Made by a program: the position numbers and the translations under genes. Source: an uncultured Merdimonas sp. (GTDB taxonomy: Bacteria > Bacillota > Clostridia > Lachnospirales > Lachnospiraceae). Taken from it: DNA of 43,791 nucleotides. The stretch covers positions 1 through 43,791 of the forward strand of contig CALWGE010000019.1 of the NCBI GenBank assembly GCA_944378225.1. The letters are read 5' to 3'. How positions within the stretch are numbered: the first letter of the stretch is position 1; each line of letters opens with the position of its first letter. Below, one piece after another: positions 31,325 through 39,597 of this stretch. The notes under the pieces are model-generated. The model did not search any database, was not told where the DNA came from, and worked only from the letters and a program-made list of their open reading frames with translations.

Positions 31325-32447
31325 TTATGCATCTTCCTCCGTTTTAACGGTAATCCATTTCAGATATGCGTTAATGAAAGGATCGAGATTGCCGTCGAGA
31401 ACGCCGTTTACATTGCTGATTTCCTGACCGGTACGATGATCCTTTACCAGCGTATAGGGCTGCATAACATAGGAACGGATCTGATTTCCCCAGCCGATTT
31501 CCTTAACCTCTCCGCGGATATCCGAAAGCTTCTCGGAATTCTTCTGCTGCTGCAGAAGATACAGCTTCGCTTTCAGCATCTGCATAGCCTTGTCCTTATT
31601 CTGGAACTGGGAGCGTTCATTCTGGCACTGCACCACGATTCCTGTGGGCAGATGGGTGATTCGAATAGCTGACGAAGTCTTATTGATGTGCTGACCGCCG
31701 GCACCGCTGGAACGGTAGGTGTCAATACGCAAATCCTCATCGCGGATCTCAATGTCAATGTTATCGTTAATCTCCGGCATAACATCCAGAGATACAAAGG
31801 AAGTCTGCCGCTTACCCTGGGCATTGAACGGGGAAATGCGGACCAGACGGTGTACGCCTTTCTCTGATTTCAGATAGCCATAGGCATTCTCTCCATTGAC
31901 CTGGAAAGTTACAGACTTGATGCCTGCCTCGTCGCCATCCAGATAGTCCAGAACTTCCACGGAAAATCCTTTGTGCTCAGCCCATCGTGTGTACATCCGG
32001 TACAGCATGCCTGCCCAGTCGCAGCTCTCCGTACCGCCGGCGCCTGCGTTCAGCTTGAGGATTGCATTATTTCTGTCATACTCTCCGGAAAGCAGAGTCT
32101 TGATCGTCATAGCATCCAGCTTTTCTGCAAAGCTTTCCAGCTCCTGCTGCACTTCCGGCACCAGAGACGGATCATTCTCCTCGTTGCCCATCTCAATCAG
32201 CGTCTCGATGTCCTCGTACTGCTGCTGCAGGGCTGCGTAATCTTCCGCTTCATCCTTCAGATTTTTAAGCTCTTTCATGCCCTCCTGGGATTTTTCCGGG
32301 TCATCCCAGTAGCCTGGAGCTTCCATTTCTCTTTCTAATTCTTCGATTCTCCTTGCCTTGTTAGCCAGGTCAAAGTGAATCCCTCAATTCCACCAATGGT
32401 CCCTGATAGCCGTTCAGCGTATATTTAAACTGATCCAGTTCTACCAT
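31325..32447 (-). CDS. prfB: Peptide chain release factor 2, with programmed +1 frameshift
   Basis: RF2 recognises UGA and UAA and triggers peptide release. Translation starts at ATG 32447 and reads 25 codons (MVELDQFKYTLNGYQG and nine more) to an in-frame TGA at 32370-32372. It must then shift +1 at CTT-TGA-C into the long frame. The joined protein is 373 residues, with the SPF anticodon tripeptide at 205-207 and GGQ at 250-252, the same numbers as in E. coli RF2, which supports the join. A long frame beginning at 32326 is therefore not the true start. GAGGTGGG precedes the ATG; the promoter is at 32535-32563. Confidence 0.95.
32369..32383 (-). promoter_or_regulatory. RF2 autoregulatory +1 frameshift site
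   Basis: Reading the minus strand, the message is AGG-GAT-TCA-CTT-TGA-C. CTTTGAC is the conserved slippery site. The AGGGA a few bases upstream is the internal Shine-Dalgarno-like stimulator, and UGA followed by C is a poor stop. Low RF2 gives frameshifting and more RF2, an autogenous feedback known in many bacteria. Confidence 0.93.
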
Positions 32448-32534
32448 TTTCCCACCTCTTTCTTTTCAAAATTAGCTGCAGCGCCGGTATGCAAGGCTTA
32501 TCACGCCTCAAACCACGCAATTTTGCTGCTTTTC

Positions 32535-32687: not shown

Positions 32688-32840
32688 ATGAATAAGATTT
32701 ATCTTAATGAAGAAGAAATGAATGTTCTTACAGGCAGAATGGAAGATCTTGCTTCTCAGGGTGTGACTGTATCAGAAGAACATTCAGGAGAAATGAATTT
32801 CAGCGGCTGCGCTACAGGACACTGCCAGGCATGGGATTAA
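32688..32840 (+). CDS. Putative RiPP precursor peptide, 50 residues
   Basis: The frame starts at ATG 32688, seven nucleotides after a perfect AAGGAGGA, one of the strongest ribosome sites in the window. A longer in-frame extension upstream has no such site. The peptide has an acidic leader (MNKIYLNEEEMNVL, then GRMEDLASQGV) and a short distinctive tail: NFSGCATGHCQAWD, residues 37-50, with Cys41, His45, Cys46 and Trp49. It has no signal sequence and no double-Gly export site. A radical SAM/SPASM enzyme 160 bp downstream on the same strand makes it a likely substrate, with a thioether or C-C crosslink in the tail. I cannot match it to a known precursor family. A short non-RiPP protein is the alternative. 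Confidence 0.72.
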   Translation: MNKIYLNEEEMNVLTGRMEDLASQGVTVSEEHSGEMNFSGCATGHCQAWD

Positions 32841-32889
32841 AATATCCCTCTCTGGAATCGCTGAAATTTCACGGGTAATCTTCAAAAAG

Positions 32890-32911
32890 CGCCGGCCGGC
32901 AGCGGCCGGCG
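32890..32911 (+). terminator. GC-rich hairpin between precursor and maturase genes
   Basis: A perfect 9-bp stem (CGCCGGCCG at 32890-32898, CGGCCGGCG at 32903-32911) has a 4-nt loop. It is preceded by AAAAAG and followed by TTTCCTG. With such a short T-tract it is more likely a partial terminator or mRNA stabiliser than a full stop. That would leave the precursor message in excess over the enzyme genes, as is common in RiPP operons. Confidence 0.6.
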
Positions 32912-33000
32912 TTTCCTGACTGCTTCAGCAAACCATACTTACATTCTGTAAATCTTATCCCCACAGAATCAATAATCATCATGATCGGAGAAAAAACATT

Positions 33001-34119
33001 ATGAGAAAAAATCTGGACAGATTTATGGGAAAACCCGGCACAAAAATCATTATACTGACCCTGACTAATCAGTGCAATCTCCGCTGCACCTACTGCTATG
33101 AACACAACAAGGAAACCAAAGAAATGTCTCTTCAGACGGCTCTTGATATTGTAGAACGGGAAATGACAGCCGATGACGGCTCTGATTTTGTCTGCGTTTA
33201 TTATTTCGGCGGAGAACCTTACCTGGAATTTGAAAAGATAAAAGCAATCCATGCTTTTTTGAACAGCCGGAGCTGGGAGAAGGGCTGGCACGGATTCACA
33301 ACCACAAACGGCACACTGGTTCATGATGAAATTCAGGACTGGCTGATTGAGAATTATGACACGATGGAAGTCTATCTGAGTATGGATGGCACGCCCGAAA
33401 TGCATAATAAAAACCGTTCTGACTCTTATGACAGGATTGATAAAGACTTCTTCCTGAAGTATTTTCCTTTTGCCAAAATGACCGCCACCAGCCAGACTCT
33501 TCCCCATCTGGCAGAAGGTGTCATGTTTCTTCACCAGCAAGGCTTTGAGGTGTCCTGCAATCTGGGAGAGGGCATTCCCTGGCCGGAAGAATGTGCAGAT
33601 ATTCTGGCAGAACAGCTTGGCGTCCTTTCCGAGTATTATCTGAGTCATCCGGAAATCCCTGTTTCCACCATACTCCGGGCCGGTATCGAAGATCTCACCC
33701 CGGGGACCAATCATCCGAAACGCTTTTGCGGCGTGGGGCCTATGATGCGTTCCTACGACACGGACGGTATCGCCTATCCCTGTCATGCCTTTGCCCCTCT
33801 GTGCATTGGAAAAGAAAAGGCTGAAGCCTCCCGGAAGCTTGATTTTTCCTGTCCGCTCCGCCTGGAGGAAAATGACGAGAAATGCCGGAATTGTCCGCTG
33901 ATCGGCAACTGTCCCACCTGCTACGGCATCAATTTCGGGAATTCAGGAAACGTCTATCACATTTCCGAGGATTACTGTCGTATGATGAAAGTGCATTTTC
34001 TGGCAAACGCCATGTTTCAGTATCGTCTGTACCGGTGCGGCAGAAAAACTTTTAAAGATGAGGGAGCTGAACTGAAGTTTCTGCGGAATGTAAAAGCTGT
34101 TCAGACGCTGCGGCCATGA
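33001..34119 (+). CDS. Radical SAM/SPASM peptide maturase
   Basis: This 372-residue enzyme has the radical SAM cluster motif CX3CX2C (Cys25, Cys29, Cys32, in LTNQCNLRCTYCYEHN) near its N-terminus and a YFGGEP motif near residue 67. Its C-terminal SPASM-type auxiliary cluster region has nine cysteines (243, 261, 268, 284, 295, 298, 304, 307, 326), including the C-x12-G-x4-C start. Enzymes of this build install thioether, ether or C-C crosslinks in ribosomal peptides. The closest candidate substrate is the 50-residue peptide just upstream. No distinct RRE (peptide recognition) domain is obvious before Cys25. A GGAG lies 11 nt before the ATG. The stop overlaps the kinase start (ATGATG), coupling the two. 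Confidence 0.88.
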   Translation: MRKNLDRFMGKPGTKIIILTLTNQCNLRCTYCYEHNKETKEMSLQTALDIVEREMTADDGSDFVCVYYFGGEPYLEFEKIKAIHAFLNSRSWEKGWHGFTTTNGTLVHDEIQDWLIENYDTMEVYLSMDGTPEMHNKNRSDSYDRIDKDFFLKYFPFAKMTATSQTLPHLAEGVMFLHQQGFEVSCNLGEGIPWPEECADILAEQLGVLSEYYLSHPEIPVSTILRAGIEDLTPGTNHPKRFCGVGPMMRSYDTDGIAYPCHAFAPLCIGKEKAEASRKLDFSCPLRLEENDEKCRNCPLIGNCPTCYGINFGNSGNVYHISEDYCRMMKVHFLANAMFQYRLYRCGRKTFKDEGAELKFLRNVKAVQTLRP

Positions 34120-35150
34120 TGTCGGAATTTACAGCTTCCTGTTTTCCTCTCTGGGATGAATGGTTTCCGGAAGAGCCCATCGGGCAGGGCTCTGCGGGAA
34201 CCGTAAGCCGTATCCGCCGCAGCACCCCGGAAGGAGTGGAATACGCCGCGCTGAAACAGATTACCATCTCTGCTGATACCGGCAACTTCCGCTACGCCCG
34301 GGCCCAGGGTATGGATGCCGGTTGTATCCGCTACTTTTTCCGGGCAGTTCTTGATGAGACCATGCAGGAAATAGATATGATGAAACAGCTGTCCGGCTGC
34401 CCCAATATTGTACATCTGGAAGATTCGCTGAGCCGGGAAATTTCCGGGCAAGGTCAGGATGCCACTTCAGATTCTGTCTCCGGCTGGATGGTTTTCATCC
34501 GCATGGAACTGCTGACGCCCTTCATTGACCGGATGACAGAAGACCTTTTTTCTCCGGCAGAAATCTGCCGGGTGGGAATGGATCTGTGTTCCGCCCTCGA
34601 TGCCTGCAGGCAGGCCCGGATCGTACACCGCGATGTAAAACCGGAAAATATTTTCTGGCAAAAAGAAACCGGCGCTTTCAAACTGGGAGATTTCGGATTC
34701 GCGCACTATATGGAACGTCCCACAGAAGAAAAGGGGCGGGCAGGAACCCTGACGCACATGTCACCGGAAATTTATGCCGGAAGCCCTGCTGATTATGCAG
34801 GAGATTTATATGCCCTGGGCATCATACTGTACCGGCTGCTGAATGATAACAGAATTCCATTTCTCCCACAATATCCGGGATTATTTACACCGCAGGATCG
34901 CAATCTTGCTCTGCTTCGCCGCCTCCGGGGCGAAAATCCGCCCCTGCCTGCGGCGGCCGTTTATGCAGCCGATCTTTCATGCGCCGCTACCGGACTGGGT
35001 ATGTCCTTTTCTGACCGTCAGCGTCCGGCCATTGCTGAACTGGCGCAAATCGCCCGCAAAGCAGTCCTGGCTGATCCTGCCGCCAGATTCCGTTCCGCAA
35101 AAGAAATGCGCGCCGCATTAAAAGCAGTGGCGGAAAGTCATCTGCTCTGA
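34116..35150 (+). CDS. Soluble Hanks-type Ser/Thr protein kinase
   Basis: This 344-residue eukaryotic-like kinase has all the main catalytic elements: GQGSAGTV glycine loop (23-30), AALK lysine (Lys47), helix-C glutamate (Glu85), HRDVKPEN (171-178), DFG (192-194), SPE (216-218) and GDLYALGIILYRLL. It should be active. Between Lys47 and helix C lies an unusually long insert (about 52-80), and another follows at about 105-123. No transmembrane segment or PASTA repeats are present, unlike the house-keeping PknB/PrkC. The start overlaps the radical SAM stop, so the two are made together. It may phosphorylate the peptide, the maturase or a regulator; nothing in the sequence decides which. Confidence 0.88.
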   Translation: MMSEFTASCFPLWDEWFPEEPIGQGSAGTVSRIRRSTPEGVEYAALKQITISADTGNFRYARAQGMDAGCIRYFFRAVLDETMQEIDMMKQLSGCPNIVHLEDSLSREISGQGQDATSDSVSGWMVFIRMELLTPFIDRMTEDLFSPAEICRVGMDLCSALDACRQARIVHRDVKPENIFWQKETGAFKLGDFGFAHYMERPTEEKGRAGTLTHMSPEIYAGSPADYAGDLYALGIILYRLLNDNRIPFLPQYPGLFTPQDRNLALLRRLRGENPPLPAAAVYAADLSCAATGLGMSFSDRQRPAIAELAQIARKAVLADPAARFRSAKEMRAALKAVAESHLL

Positions 35151-35183
35151 ATATGAATCAAAACATGTAAAAGGGGAACTTAG

Positions 35184-36089
35184 ATGAAAGAAATTGAAGC
35201 GTCTTATCAGAAATTCCTTGCCGGGCTTTCCCACTCTTTCGAATTTCATAACATAGACTACATCGGTGTGTGTCTGGATGCAGACAGCCAGGAGCCCTGC
35301 CGCTTTAAAATATACTGGAGCGATCACTGCAGGCCGCCTTTTGAACACAAATCTGTTTCCTGGCTGAAGGAAACAGGACTGGCCGAATATATAGAAACCG
35401 TAGAACATGCGGGTCGCGCGCGGAAGTATCAGTCTGATATTCGAATCCGAAACAGGACAGACGGAAATATGGAACAGCTGTTTTCATTTCTGTCCGGAAA
35501 TGAATCTGCTTTTCATGAAAATGAAACTCTTATCCGCAGTCTTTCCCGCATGCCCATCACAGAACTGTCCGGCTATCTGTATGCGTCTCTGTATTTTATC
35601 GGCTTTCTCTATGAAGGGGCTCATGACTCTGAGATGTTGAAATTTCACTGGATTAACCGATTCTGTAAAAACCCGGATATCCTGACTTCAGATATCTGGT
35701 ATGACGACAGTTATTATCTGGAATATCTAAGCAGCCTGTCCGGGACTCCGTACAGGCTGCTGGCTGAGCAGACAGGTTTTCTCCTGAAAAACTGTTCCTG
35801 CCATCTGTGGATGACAGGGCTGGATATCATGAAAAGCGGCTGGAAGAAATACAAGCTATATACCAAACGTCCTTCAGATATCTGTCAGGCTATGTACACT
35901 CTGTTTTCACAGACGCCTCAGTATCATCCTCTGGCAGAAAAAATACAAGAGTTGGAGCAGTGGATGAAGATACATCCCGAACTGGAGCCGGAGGGCTCTG
36001 CCTTTTGTCTGGACACAGATAACAAGTATTCTGTAAATTTATACTACGGTATCCGGGAAAGTTACTTCCAGAATAAGCGAACATCCTGA
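35184..36089 (+). CDS. Unrecognised 301-residue protein in the RiPP-like operon (possible PT-barrel fold)
   Basis: I do not recognise this protein with confidence. It is soluble, rich in aromatic residues, and has no signal peptide. Three segments have the same form, a Leu-Asp strand, a turn, then a Lys/Val-hydrophobic-Tyr strand: GVCLD with KIYW (28-45), GLD with YKLY (212-226) and FCLD with VNLYY (274-288). Repeated beta-hairpins of this sort, plus a length near 300, recall ABBA/PT-barrel prenyltransferases such as the cyanobactin PatF/TruF group, but this is a weak visual resemblance. It lies 33 bp after the kinase with an AGGGGA site and closes the operon. A lineage-specific binding protein is the alternative. 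Confidence 0.75.
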   Translation: MKEIEASYQKFLAGLSHSFEFHNIDYIGVCLDADSQEPCRFKIYWSDHCRPPFEHKSVSWLKETGLAEYIETVEHAGRARKYQSDIRIRNRTDGNMEQLFSFLSGNESAFHENETLIRSLSRMPITELSGYLYASLYFIGFLYEGAHDSEMLKFHWINRFCKNPDILTSDIWYDDSYYLEYLSSLSGTPYRLLAEQTGFLLKNCSCHLWMTGLDIMKSGWKKYKLYTKRPSDICQAMYTLFSQTPQYHPLAEKIQELEQWMKIHPELEPEGSAFCLDTDNKYSVNLYYGIRESYFQNKRTS

Positions 36090-36114: not shown

Positions 36115-37269
36115 TCAGATAACGGTCCGCCCGGCCATCTTTCCGGCTGCCCGAAGTATCCGGAACAGACGTCTGGCCGCTCCCAGATACAGCTCCTCCG
36201 CCCGGTCAAGAGCTTCTTCCAGCGGCATGATTCCGTTTACCGTAGTAAGCATGGATTCTATACCGCAGTCAAAAATCTGTTCCGCCCCGTCTCCCATGCT
36301 GCCCACGATGGCCACGGCCGGAACTCCTCTGCTGCGGCAGTGCCGGCCCACTCCCTGCATTACCTTGCCGAAGGCAGACTGCCAGTCCGCCCGGCCCTCT
36401 CCCGTAACCACCAGGGAGACTCCTTCCAGCTTTCTGTCAAATTCAAGAAGATCCAGCACCGTCTCAATGCCCGATTTCGGTTCCGCGTTCAGAAAGGCCA
36501 TCAGAGCCGCTCCCAGTCCGCCGGCCGCACCTGCGCCCGGAATCTGGTCCATATCCATTCCAGATTCTTTCCGGAGCAGCTCCCGGTAATTCTGCATCCC
36601 CGCCTCCAGCTCCGCAAGAATCTCCGGCGTTCCGCCTTTCTGTTTCCCGAAGGTATACGTAGCTCCGTTCTCCCCGCACAGGGGATTGGTTACATCACAC
36701 ATCACCGTAAAACGGGCCTCGCGGATTCTGGGATCCAGGCCGGAGCAGTCCATGGCGCGTATTTTTATCAGATCCCCGCCGCATCCGGACAGCTCTTCTC
36801 CGTTTTCATCCAGGAACCGTACTCCCAGAGCACGCATGCAGCCAATCCCGCCGTCATTTGTAGCCGAACCCCCGATGGCGATGGAAATATCCCGGAATCC
36901 CCGTTCCAGAGCATCTCGAATCATTTCTCCCGTTCCGTAGGTCGTAGTGTTCCGCGGGTCCCGAAACGCTTCCGGTACAAGGGGAAGACCTGACGCCTCA
37001 GCCATCTCCATCACCGCTCTGTATTCGTCAAGCGCTCCATAGCAGGCCGTATGCTGCTCCCATAAGGGTCCGCAGACGCTGACGTTTATCCGGCGTCCGT
37101 TCAGCGCCGAAAGCAGAGCCTTCACCGTTCCCTCTCCGCCGTCAGCCACCTCCAGGCTTTCACATTCGCAGCCCGGAAAAATTTCTTCGGCAGCCTGTGT
37201 CAGAAGCTCTGCTGTCCGCCCGGAAGACAGGCTTCCTTTAAAAGAATCCGAAGCAAATAAAAACTTCAT
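36115..37269 (-). CDS. glxK: Glycerate kinase (GarK/GlxK family)
   Basis: It phosphorylates D-glycerate, giving 2- or 3-phosphoglycerate. The 384 residues are of normal length. Family motifs are ASDSFKGSLSS (residues 6-16), ADGGEGT near 45, GSATNDGGIG near 135 and GAAGGLGAAL near 250, with VVTGEGRAD in the C-terminal third. A GGAGG site precedes the ATG. It lies 12 bp after pspC at the end of the padR-DUF1700-DUF4097-pspC unit, so it may be read through from that promoter, although its metabolic job has no clear link with envelope stress. Confidence 0.93.
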   Translation of the reverse strand: MKFLFASDSFKGSLSSGRTAELLTQAAEEIFPGCECESLEVADGGEGTVKALLSALNGRRINVSVCGPLWEQHTACYGALDEYRAVMEMAEASGLPLVPEAFRDPRNTTTYGTGEMIRDALERGFRDISIAIGGSATNDGGIGCMRALGVRFLDENGEELSGCGGDLIKIRAMDCSGLDPRIREARFTVMCDVTNPLCGENGATYTFGKQKGGTPEILAELEAGMQNYRELLRKESGMDMDQIPGAGAAGGLGAALMAFLNAEPKSGIETVLDLLEFDRKLEGVSLVVTGEGRADWQSAFGKVMQGVGRHCRSRGVPAVAIVGSMGDGAEQIFDCGIESMLTTVNGIMPLEEALDRAEELYLGAARRLFRILRAAGKMAGRTVI

Positions 37270-37508: not shown

Positions 37509-38582
37509 TCATTTCTGTACAAAATCCAGAGAAATCATACCAATTCCACAATCTGCCGTCACAGTCTTATCTGCCCCATGATCCACAGACGCGCTGCGAG
37601 CCAGTCCTGAATAACTCCGGTCACCCAGACGTATTGTACCAATTCCGCAGTCTACTGTGTAATTATAGTCAGTCTCATTTCCCAGCACAGTGACTGTCAG
37701 AGAGCCCACTCCACAGTCCAGATTCATATTGCCTCCCGTGAGCTGTGACACAATGAGCTTTCCTGTCCCCACGTCCAGTCCCGCCGTTTCGTCAGCCTCC
37801 AGTCTCTCCACTGTACCGCTTCCCACTCCGCAGTCCAGCTCCAGTTCATCCGCGGCCAACCGGCCGGCCGTAAGCATTCCGGCTCCCACGTCAATGCTGA
37901 TCCTGTCTGCCAGAAGCTGATCTACAGATGCGTCCGAGGCTCCCAGATCCAGCTCCACCTCCTGAAACCGTCTTGCAGGAATCACCACTTCCAGTTCCAA
38001 AGCCTGGTCTTTCTGACATTGGGCATGTGTCCGGGTATCTTTGAGGCACAGGGTATCACCGTCCAGAAAGCTTGTGAAATAGCTGCGGGCATTGCGTCCC
38101 TTCACCAGGATATCACTGTTCTCTTCCCCGGAAGTAATGTGGAGAATGGTATAATGCAGATCCATCTCGATCTGCTTCACATTTTCAGCTGCAAAGCTGT
38201 CTTCAAAAGAATCTATGTCATCTCCGGACGGAACCGCCAGCTGTCCGGCAGCCACTCCGCCCCAGCCGTGATGCGCACCGCCCTGCTCCCAGTCATCCTC
38301 CCAGTGATGACCCCAGCCGCTGCTCCAGTCATCCAGATCATCTTCCAGATCTTCCGACCACTGCTCCACATTGTCTTCCACATTGTCTGACCAGCTTTCC
38401 ATCCGATCTTCCAGATGCTCATTTCCATTCTTCATCCACCAGAAAATACTTCCGTCATAGTGAGCCAGATTCAGAAACTGGGCAGGCCTCGCTCCCATCG
38501 CCATGCCGATCCCGATACCTGCCACACCAATGACTCCCAGAGCCGCTGCCAGCAGCAGACAGAATTTCATAAATCTTTTCAT
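37509..38582 (-). CDS. DUF4097-family membrane-anchored protein with Trp/Asp hendecad repeat
   Basis: The ATG at 38582 overlaps the DUF1700 stop by one base (TAATG) and gives 357 residues. A membrane anchor (about 5-30) is followed by an acidic linker with three 11-residue repeats at 53-63, 64-74 and 75-85. The last two have the form W-S-[DE]-x-[VL]-E-D-x-[VL]-x-x, and a Trp/His/Asp-rich stretch extends to about 110. The second half (about 190-357) is a DUF4097-type beta-repeat domain with recurrent D-[CV]-G-[VIAT]-G turns. Such proteins occur in PadR- or LiaR-type envelope-stress operons. Role unknown; the linker is unusual. A start 44 codons earlier is possible but lies within the upstream gene. 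Confidence 0.8.
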   Translation of the reverse strand: MKRFMKFCLLLAAALGVIGVAGIGIGMAMGARPAQFLNLAHYDGSIFWWMKNGNEHLEDRMESWSDNVEDNVEQWSEDLEDDLDDWSSGWGHHWEDDWEQGGAHHGWGGVAAGQLAVPSGDDIDSFEDSFAAENVKQIEMDLHYTILHITSGEENSDILVKGRNARSYFTSFLDGDTLCLKDTRTHAQCQKDQALELEVVIPARRFQEVELDLGASDASVDQLLADRISIDVGAGMLTAGRLAADELELDCGVGSGTVERLEADETAGLDVGTGKLIVSQLTGGNMNLDCGVGSLTVTVLGNETDYNYTVDCGIGTIRLGDRSYSGLARSASVDHGADKTVTADCGIGMISLDFVQK

Positions 38583-39277
38583 TATTTTGCACCTGCCTTT
38601 CTGAAGGGATAGCTGATAATCCGCACAATTCCCCTTATCAGCCAGGGCACGGCCTTTATGCAGCACCACAGAATCACGGCGGAAAGCACAATGCCGAGCG
38701 CCGCCAGGATACATCCTGTGCCTGTAAGGGCAATTCCTATGGCAGGTGCTGCAAATATCTGCGCAATTCCTATTCCAATAACAAAAATACCGGATATCAG
38801 AACAGCCAGACCCGATACCAGAATTCCTGCCAGGAATACCACCAGTGCCAGAGCAACGCCAATTACTACCAGGAAGATTCCCAGAAAAATGGGAAGAATC
38901 ACAGGCGCCACCAGAATGCAGATCAGGATAATCGCCAGTACTTTCCAGAAATTCGTCTCTTTCTTTCGTGCCTTGGGCTGTTTTCCGCCTGCGGATGAAT
39001 CTGCAGATGCCCCTGCGGACAGCTCTCCGTCCTTACGTTCAAACCGTACATCCCGGTATCCCTGCTCGGAATATTCCGAATCCGTATCCGAAAGACCCGC
39101 CTTGATTTTCTGCGCCACCTGCTCGGGACTTACCAGCTCTTTGAGAACCTCTGCCTCGTTTTCTGCTCCTGCATCATCAAAATAATCATTATAATACTGT
39201 AAGGCCTCTTCACGCTCGCTGTCGGAAATATCACGCAGCAGCTTTTCCAGCCTTTCCATAAATTCTTTTCTGCTCAT
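38582..39277 (-). CDS. DUF1700 family membrane protein
   Basis: This 231-residue protein has a cytoplasmic helical N-terminus (MSRKEFMERLEKLL to about residue 62, with the typical YYNDYFDDAG segment), a Ser/Ala/Lys-rich linker, and a hydrophobic C-terminal half with about four to five membrane segments. The N-terminal part is the DUF1700/HAAS-like domain found next to PadR regulators, which is thought to interact with the regulator; the membrane part may sense envelope state. Its start overlaps the padR stop by four bases (ATGA). Confidence 0.88.
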   Translation of the reverse strand: MSRKEFMERLEKLLRDISDSEREEALQYYNDYFDDAGAENEAEVLKELVSPEQVAQKIKAGLSDTDSEYSEQGYRDVRFERKDGELSAGASADSSAGGKQPKARKKETNFWKVLAIILICILVAPVILPIFLGIFLVVIGVALALVVFLAGILVSGLAVLISGIFVIGIGIAQIFAAPAIGIALTGTGCILAALGIVLSAVILWCCIKAVPWLIRGIVRIISYPFRKAGAK

Positions 39278-39597
39278 TGTTTCTCACTCCCCTCGAACAG
39301 CCTCGATATTTTTTCAGAATAAATTTTCCACTCACCCGTGTACAAATTGAGCTGGGCCGTTCCCGCCTCGGTAATCCGGTAATATCTGCGGTTTCTTCCC
39401 GCGTATTCCATATCATAGGTCTCCAGACATCCATCTTTCTGAAGCCTTCGCAGAACAGGATACAGTGTAGACTCTGATATTTCTATCGCCTGTCTCACAT
39501 CCTGGGTAATCTTATACCCGTAGGTCCCTTCCGCGTCATGAGATACGACAGCCAGCACGATTGCATCCAGGAGCGCGGCTCCGGTGTTGAATACCAT
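39274..39597 (-). CDS. PadR family transcriptional regulator
   Basis: This 107-residue PadR-s1 type winged-helix regulator contains SHDAEGTYGYKITQDV, the recognition region with STLYPVLRRLQKDGCLETY (about residues 40-60), the wing with RNRRYYRIT, and a short dimerisation helix at the C-terminus. It is first in an operon with DUF1700, DUF4097 and PspC proteins, probably as an autorepressor released by an envelope signal. The promoter at 39719-39748 carries inverted repeats that are likely its operator. Confidence 0.92.
   Translation of the reverse strand: MVFNTGAALLDAIVLAVVSHDAEGTYGYKITQDVRQAIEISESTLYPVLRRLQKDGCLETYDMEYAGRNRRYYRITEAGTAQLNLYTGEWKIYSEKISRLFEGSEKQ

Follow-up and report, generated by a model that had tools for sequence, protein, structure and literature searches.

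A conserved four-gene cassette of gut-type Clostridia predicted to encode a radical-SAM cross-linked and prenylated peptide

The window analysed here, i.e. the 43,791 nucleotides of contig CALWGE010000019.1 from an uncultured Merdimonas sp., carries a cassette of four genes for a small peptide, a radical S-adenosylmethionine (SAM)/SPASM enzyme, a Hanks-type Ser/Thr kinase and a 301-residue protein, called gene 4 below. Our analysis suggests that this locus probably makes a ribosomally synthesised and post-translationally modified peptide (RiPP) that is cross-linked by the radical SAM enzyme and prenylated, prenylation of the radical-SAM peptide being the likeliest outcome. Judging from the sequence comparisons, the locus is a genuine, rare and conserved RiPP-type cassette. 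The main new point is that gene 4 is predicted, on the basis of a structural model, to represent a family of prenyltransferase (PT)-barrel enzymes for which neither Pfam nor NCBIfam has a model. A first-pass annotation of the same DNA had proposed a new RiPP class; the RiPP-type locus is upheld by its conservation across genomes, while the "new class" is better described as a new combination of known RiPP chemistries.

The AlphaFold2 model of the gene 4 protein, computed from an eight-sequence alignment, has a predicted local distance difference test score of 89.6 and a predicted TM-score of 0.88, and consists of ten strands in five pairs with helices between most of them. The Foldseek search against PDB gave 60 matches with E <=0.001 (best E 4.2e-7), and the best 50 of the 60 are all prenyltransferases acting on indoles, phenazines, other aromatics or RiPPs; the RiPP enzymes PagF, PatF, KgpF and LimF are among the matches listed. 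All the matched prenyltransferases presumably have the PT barrel. With the ten-strand barrel present in the model, which in ABBA enzymes is built of alpha-beta-beta-alpha repeats, gene 4 can be read as a predicted ABBA/PT-barrel prenyltransferase, and the mass shift of +68 Da per prenyl group, at which the first-pass annotation had hinted, gains substance. The annotation's statement that the 301-residue protein belongs to no recognised family holds in Pfam, NCBIfam and the PDB sequences and fails at the fold level. Weak NCBIfam matches to lincosamide nucleotidyltransferase, covering 51 residues in one of eight members (19.8 and 18.3 bits, where 525 are required), were set aside once the PT-barrel fold had been predicted.

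We compared the residues of nine gene 4 members, two of them far relatives, leaving out the copy with an in-frame stop in locus L008. D25, Y44, G140, G212, D214, K222, K224, Y226, N285, L286 and Y287 are invariant in the nine, and D25, Y44, D214, K222, K224, Y226, N285 and Y287 all lie in strands of the model, the K-x-K-x-Y run falling on a single strand. This run resembles what we take to be the R-x-K-x-Y of the fungal prenyltransferases. In known enzymes of this fold the diphosphate is bound by Lys, Arg and Tyr side chains within the barrel, and Y44, K222, K224, Y226 and Y287 are candidates for this role in gene 4. The two far relatives, L037 and L038, were found by sampling and both adjoin radical SAM genes. 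At L037:5401-8096 the prenyltransferase relative overlaps the gene of a 506-aa PapB-like SPASM enzyme by 10 bases, and at L038:2386-4859 it lies 3 bases ahead of a gene whose product is a radical SAM enzyme of 360 aa. In L038 the prenyltransferase relative is extended at its C-terminus, and the extension has a single, weak Pfam match, to the RiPP-recognition fold PqqD. Downstream of the L038 radical SAM gene we found a 43-aa Cys-rich open frame that ends in CSSSCCFYRDGATW, with Trp as its last residue, and our script found no ribosome-binding site for it. The best NCBIfam model for the L038 radical SAM enzyme is heme b synthase, at 124.9 bits against a cut-off of 500. At the end of the L037 contig, a partial frame without any NCBIfam match resembles another radical SAM gene by eye.

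The precursor peptide has a C-terminal core that ends in SGEMNFSGCATGHCQAWD and follows the pattern GC-x4-C-x-A-W. Ten peptides were aligned, i.e. that of the window and nine relatives, with L007 left out as a copy of L005. G25, E35, N37, G40, C41, C46, A48 and W49 are invariant in this alignment, and D50 is kept in 8 of the 10, being Ala in L002 and L004. The window core contains two Cys-x3-residue units, C41-ATG-H45 and C46-QAW-D50, both of which may be ring sites; one CX3D unit is found in 8 of the 10 peptides and none in L002 and L004.

The enzyme encoded next to the peptide has a radical SAM domain (PF04055, E 1.3e-9). The Pfam SPASM model has no match on the window protein, and the SPASM label was given because of the cysteine pattern and the PapB-family match over residues 17-319. 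This PapB model (NF047865) is the best in NCBIfam, at 127.5 bits against a cut-off of 340 (~37%), with a CXXX-repeat maturase family next (107.2 of the 350 bits required). Among the PDB sequences, 5wgg_A matches best (E 5.8e-13); we take it to be the thioether-forming SCIFF maturase CteB. Across 11 aligned sequences, from the window and 10 loci and again without L007, the CX3CX2C cysteines C25, C29 and C32 are invariant, and so are seven SPASM-type cysteines (C243, C261, C295, C298, C304, C307 and C326). With these cysteines and an adjacent small precursor, the protein is, as read from its sequence, a putative radical SAM/SPASM RiPP maturase in the broad sense, in agreement with the first-pass description of a SPASM enzyme beside a small peptide.

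The cassette recurs in other genomes. A single scan of our contig collection with the radical SAM protein gave 11 related loci, which represent 10 distinct relatives because L005 and L007 are identical over 13 kb. The closest radical SAM relative is that of Lachnoclostridium sp. An169 (L001, 86% identity), and the records of the others are titled Lachnospiraceae, Clostridia and similar, several of them coming from animal guts, which points to a gut-type Clostridia host. In 10 of the 11 loci the radical SAM gene is closely preceded by the peptide (tblastn, E 5e-27 to 9e-5). The contig of the eleventh, L009, starts within the radical SAM gene and does not reach its upstream side. The kinase is found at the cluster in 9 of the 11, the L002 copy being cut by the contig end. 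The L009 genome has a weaker kinase match located elsewhere than the cluster. The L010 genome has no kinase match at E 1e-40, and its contig stops just before gene 4, at the place next to gene 4 where the kinase sits in L008. Seven of the 11 have gene 4 at the cluster, with no second match in those 11 genomes at E <=1e-5; it was not found in the genome of L002, which is fragmented, nor in those of L005/L007 and L006. Its loss in L006 may be recent, since a 26-residue remnant is kept there. The window and L001 have the kinase followed by gene 4, while gene 4 precedes the peptide in L003, L004, L008, L010 and L011; in L009 it sits downstream of the radical SAM gene, at a distance of 3.4 kb. The first-pass annotation had asked whether the four proteins co-occur, which they do at these frequencies, and it would have been contradicted by radical SAM homologues that never lie beside such a peptide; the two are adjacent in 10 of the 10 testable loci. 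In the copy at L008:2281-4448, gene 4 is interrupted by an in-frame stop and the kinase has lost the catalytic-loop Lys after HRD; on these grounds the copy may be decaying or faultily assembled.

We compared all open frames of at least 60 aa from 14 regions against each other (E <=1e-5, L007 left out). The groups common to loci are the four cassette genes, an isomerase-like gene in L001 and L004, and few others, i.e. two open frames of L008 and L010, one of which overlaps the peptide gene, and TIR/NACHT-like proteins of L009 and L010. Most of the flanking genes are not shared between loci. The distances among the kinases, the prenyltransferases and the peptides correlate with the radical SAM distances with r of 0.86, 0.83 and 0.73 (permutation p 0.0002, 0.003 and 0.001 with n = 8, 7 and 8 sequences, respectively), a pattern that shared descent of the genomes could also give.

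The cassette is rare. At E 1e-60 the radical SAM protein is found in 2 of 397 genomes sampled from the window's family, its own included, and the other one, G318/L039, has no peptide match, kinase or gene 4 nearby. Gene 4 matches occur in 3 of 392 genomes of the order and 1 of 391 of the class (own genome included, in overlapping samples), and in 1 of 48 genomes of the family of G593, namely G593 itself. As a separate observation, L039:3139-4453 and L040:1830-4843 (a Phocaeicola plasmid) carry PapB-like radical SAM genes at 37-38% identity, and downstream of them lie small open frames that are rich in Cys and include Trp.

The kinase domain (E 3.2e-31 in Pfam) retains its catalytic residues in the window protein, i.e. 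K47, E85, HRD at 171-173 and DFG at 192-194. The VAIK Lys, the alpha-C Glu, HRD and DFG are present in all eight aligned kinases, the pattern of an active Hanks kinase as far as the sequence can tell, and the first-pass annotation had rightly called it intact. Kinase-fold families alone match this protein in Pfam and NCBIfam, and the LanL model scores a weak 39.9 bits against a cut-off of 650. A class III/IV lanthipeptide was ruled out since the kinase protein has no lyase or cyclase match.

Genes that might supply isoprenoids were found next to the cluster in two relatives. Isopentenyl diphosphate (IPP)-isomerase-like genes adjoin it in L001 and L004 (TIGR02150, E 1e-27 and 4e-29, respectively), and in the window's family 13 of 299 genomes have a TIGR02150 match anywhere at E <=1e-20. 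The window's genome, an assembly of 2.85 Mb in 138 contigs, has ispH. Weaker Nudix matches to TIGR02150 in four other relative genomes (E 4e-12 to 8e-6) were not counted as isomerases.

We propose the following pathway. The peptide would consist of a leader of about residues 1-33 and a C-terminal core around NFSGCATGHCQAWD. The PapB-like SPASM enzyme would join Cys41 and/or Cys46 to downstream residues, most likely as one or two thioethers, C41-H45 and C46-D50, each with a loss of 2 Da. The gene 4 enzyme, predicted by its fold, would use an isoprenyl diphosphate as donor and pass the isoprenyl group on to the peptide, where the indole of the invariant Trp49 is the most likely acceptor. The kinase would either phosphorylate the precursor, e.g. 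at Ser33 or in the leader, or control the pathway enzymes. Since a hairpin lies between the peptide and enzyme genes, the precursor could exceed the enzymes, and the hairpin may serve to keep it in excess. Among the genes that recur between loci we recognised none for a transporter, for immunity or for a protease (no search aimed at proteases was made), and the peptide may hence act inside the producing cell. The complete scheme, in which a new Clostridia RiPP group joins on one small core the thioether rings C41-H45 and C46-D50, Trp49 prenylation by a new ABBA family partnered with radical SAM enzymes, and a phosphate group added by its own Hanks kinase, is doubtful as a whole and is put forward tentatively. 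If the locus does make a cross-linked and prenylated RiPP, anaerobes would have a prenyltransferase family of divergent sequence, gut-type Clostridia would have a lipidated peptide, and four small genes would allow a direct test of where a kinase fits into a RiPP pathway.

Several observations weigh against a cross-linked and prenylated product. The Foldseek TM-scores range from 0.28 to 0.55 (by query length) with root-mean-square deviations of 5.7-12.1 A among the matches listed, and because of these low to moderate scores and these deviations we take the likeness as one of fold and not of close kinship. Gene 4 has no sequence-level match to a prenyltransferase in Pfam, NCBIfam or the PDB sequences; the sequence-profile search of PDB gave only two matches, to viral protein fragments, with E 0.7 and 2.2. 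The PqqD match of L038 (E 0.014, 16.2 bits) is under its cut-off of 23.4, and the radical SAM enzyme is far under the cut-off of all 25 NCBIfam models listed. A Cys-Asp bond could not be universal, because D50 is replaced by Ala in L002 and L004. Both isomerase-like proteins fall just under the TIGR02150 cut-off (96.9 and 101.7 against 105.8 bits), and the window's own genome has no match to a type I IPP isomerase. Trp49 is kept where gene 4 was not found (L002, L005/L007 and L006), and Trp is also present in the candidate peptides of L039 and L040, whose fetched stretches have no gene 4 or kinase match; since it persists without gene 4, the Trp may be needed for the radical SAM step or for recognition, either in addition to prenylation or in its place. 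As to phosphorylation, the core has no Ser or Thr that is invariant in the 10 aligned peptides, and Ser33, found in 9 of the 10, is missing in L004 although the kinase is present there. The phosphorylated peptide suggested by the first-pass annotation thus gains little from these data, and we regard phosphorylation of the peptide by the kinase as possible, not favoured over regulation.

Regulation by the kinase is compatible with the cross-linked and prenylated RiPP that we prefer. We give a little less than an even chance to a kinase that phosphorylates the maturation enzymes or a target of the finished peptide, and not the peptide itself. Besides the variable Ser/Thr content of the core, its relatives elsewhere in two of the same genomes (L081 and L082) point this way, being long with an apparent membrane stretch, and one of them lies beside a PP2C-like gene, both features as judged by eye. 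However, no sensor part is recognised in the cluster kinase, on which kinase-fold families alone match, and its being kept where the prenyltransferase was not found fits a tailoring enzyme as well as a regulator.

The role of gene 4 could be of another kind, if the PT-barrel protein has a small molecule as its prenyl acceptor, or binds the peptide without catalysis, so that the product is an unprenylated cross-linked peptide. We consider this unlikely. The pN/pS ratios (nonsynonymous to synonymous) between the window and L001 show the peptide and the radical SAM gene to be more constrained (0.13 and 0.11) than gene 4 (0.38), the kinase being at 0.27, and they agree with such a product, as do the loci that keep the Trp where gene 4 was not found. 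Yet the catalytic-type strand residues are invariant across nine divergent gene 4 members, and the two far relatives pair with unlike radical SAM enzymes, one of them having a possible RiPP-recognition part; both points speak against this reading. It is more improbable still that the locus encodes a PapA/PapB ranthipeptide beside which two accessory genes lie by chance. No other named family is closer than PapB, and the C46-QAW-D50 stretch has the form of the CX3D units on which PapB acts (PMC9413430), but the score reaches only about 37% of the PapB cut-off, there is one CX3D unit and not six, D50 is not universal, and the kinase and gene 4 recur in most relatives in varying order.

The four genes are all on the + strand at the positions first annotated (Table 1), and the kinase gene starts within the radical SAM gene, sharing 4 bases with it at the ATGATG that had been reported. 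The arrangement between prfB and glycerate kinase was also confirmed by the positions: the upstream flank at 31325-32326 on the minus strand is presumably prfB, and the downstream flank at 36115-37269 on the minus strand presumably glycerate kinase.

Table 1. Positions of the cassette features in the window
Feature	Position	Strand	Remarks
Precursor peptide gene	32688..32840	+	50 aa; TAAGGAGG precedes ATG
Hairpin, GC-rich, strong	32887..32914	+	between peptide and radical SAM genes; possible attenuator or mRNA stabiliser
Radical SAM/SPASM peptide maturase	33001..34119	+	372 aa; PapB nearest, outside that equivalog
Hanks-type Ser/Thr kinase	34116..35150	+	344 aa; PF00069, catalytic residues present
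Predicted ABBA/PT-barrel prenyltransferase (gene 4)	35184..36089	+	301 aa; AlphaFold2 and Foldseek

The interval 32841-33000, which contains the hairpin, folds with a z-score of -4.28, and 0 of 200 shuffles are as stable. The same interval has a marked hairpin in 9 of 9 relatives folded, which were folded without shuffles. The window hairpin scores as terminator-like on the minus strand only. The promoter scan gave 6 sites against 4.6 expected, none of them upstream of the peptide gene.

Several side observations were also made. Read by eye, prfB appears to have its usual programmed +1 frameshift at 32326-32448 on the minus strand, where a short first frame starts with ATG at about 32448 and ends in CTTTGA, after which the main frame follows. 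On the minus strand at 37509-39597, a DUF4097 (toastrack) protein is encoded in a row with two further genes, which by eye are for a small protein and a PadR-like regulator. TIR/NACHT-like proteins are encoded near the cluster at L009:1133-4451 and L010:4089-7499, and an FHA-kinase gene follows gene 4 in L009. A defence role prompted by the TIR/NACHT-like proteins was dropped, because they are absent from all other loci compared. Viral and plasmid origins were also rejected: among viral contigs the radical SAM protein matched no more than 13 loci, at 24-31% identity, and among plasmids it has 4 matches, with 26-37% identity, and gene 4 has none.

Hanks-type kinases take part in RiPP making in the LanKC/LanL synthetases of class III/IV lanthipeptides, whereas in our cassette the kinase is encoded on its own, as a 344-aa protein in which neither a lyase nor a cyclase is matched. 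The literature searched, including the accessible parts of PMC11002830 and PMC12715784 and covering few subscription papers, has no prenylated radical-SAM RiPP. PapB links Cys to the beta carbon of Asp in CX3D (PMC9413430). The PapA/PapB ranthipeptides resemble our locus in having the nearest enzyme family (NF047865), a small Cys-containing precursor and the CX3D unit, and differ from it in the enzyme score (127.5 against 340 bits), in the two core Cys with an Asp that is not invariant, and in the kinase and PT-barrel enzyme added here; the window-type peptides do not have the repeated CX3D/E units of PapB maturase substrates. PMC12715784 describes prenylated RiPPs among the cyanobactins, lanthipeptides and lasso peptides, and the cyanobactin ABBA prenyltransferases are reported there to act on Trp, Tyr, His and other RiPP side chains. 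PagF, PatF, KgpF and LimF share the predicted fold and the length of ~300 aa with gene 4, but without a sequence-level match, and the gene 4 enzyme has a radical SAM partner and Clostridia-type hosts, not cyanobacteria. Cyanobactins are marked by subtilisin-like proteases and a macrocyclised core; in the gene groups shared between our loci no protease was recognised, though no search aimed at proteases was made. PMC12715784 also describes the MppE/MppM/MppC system of Moorena, in which a leader-dependent ABBA enzyme geranylates the Trp of a thioether-bridged RiPP after ring formation. There the thioether is made by a lanthionine synthetase, while here it would presumably be made by the radical SAM enzyme, with a kinase added. 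An ABBA enzyme that acts on Trp once the rings are in place is also what we propose for gene 4, and the Moorena system may serve as the model for the proposed order of steps.

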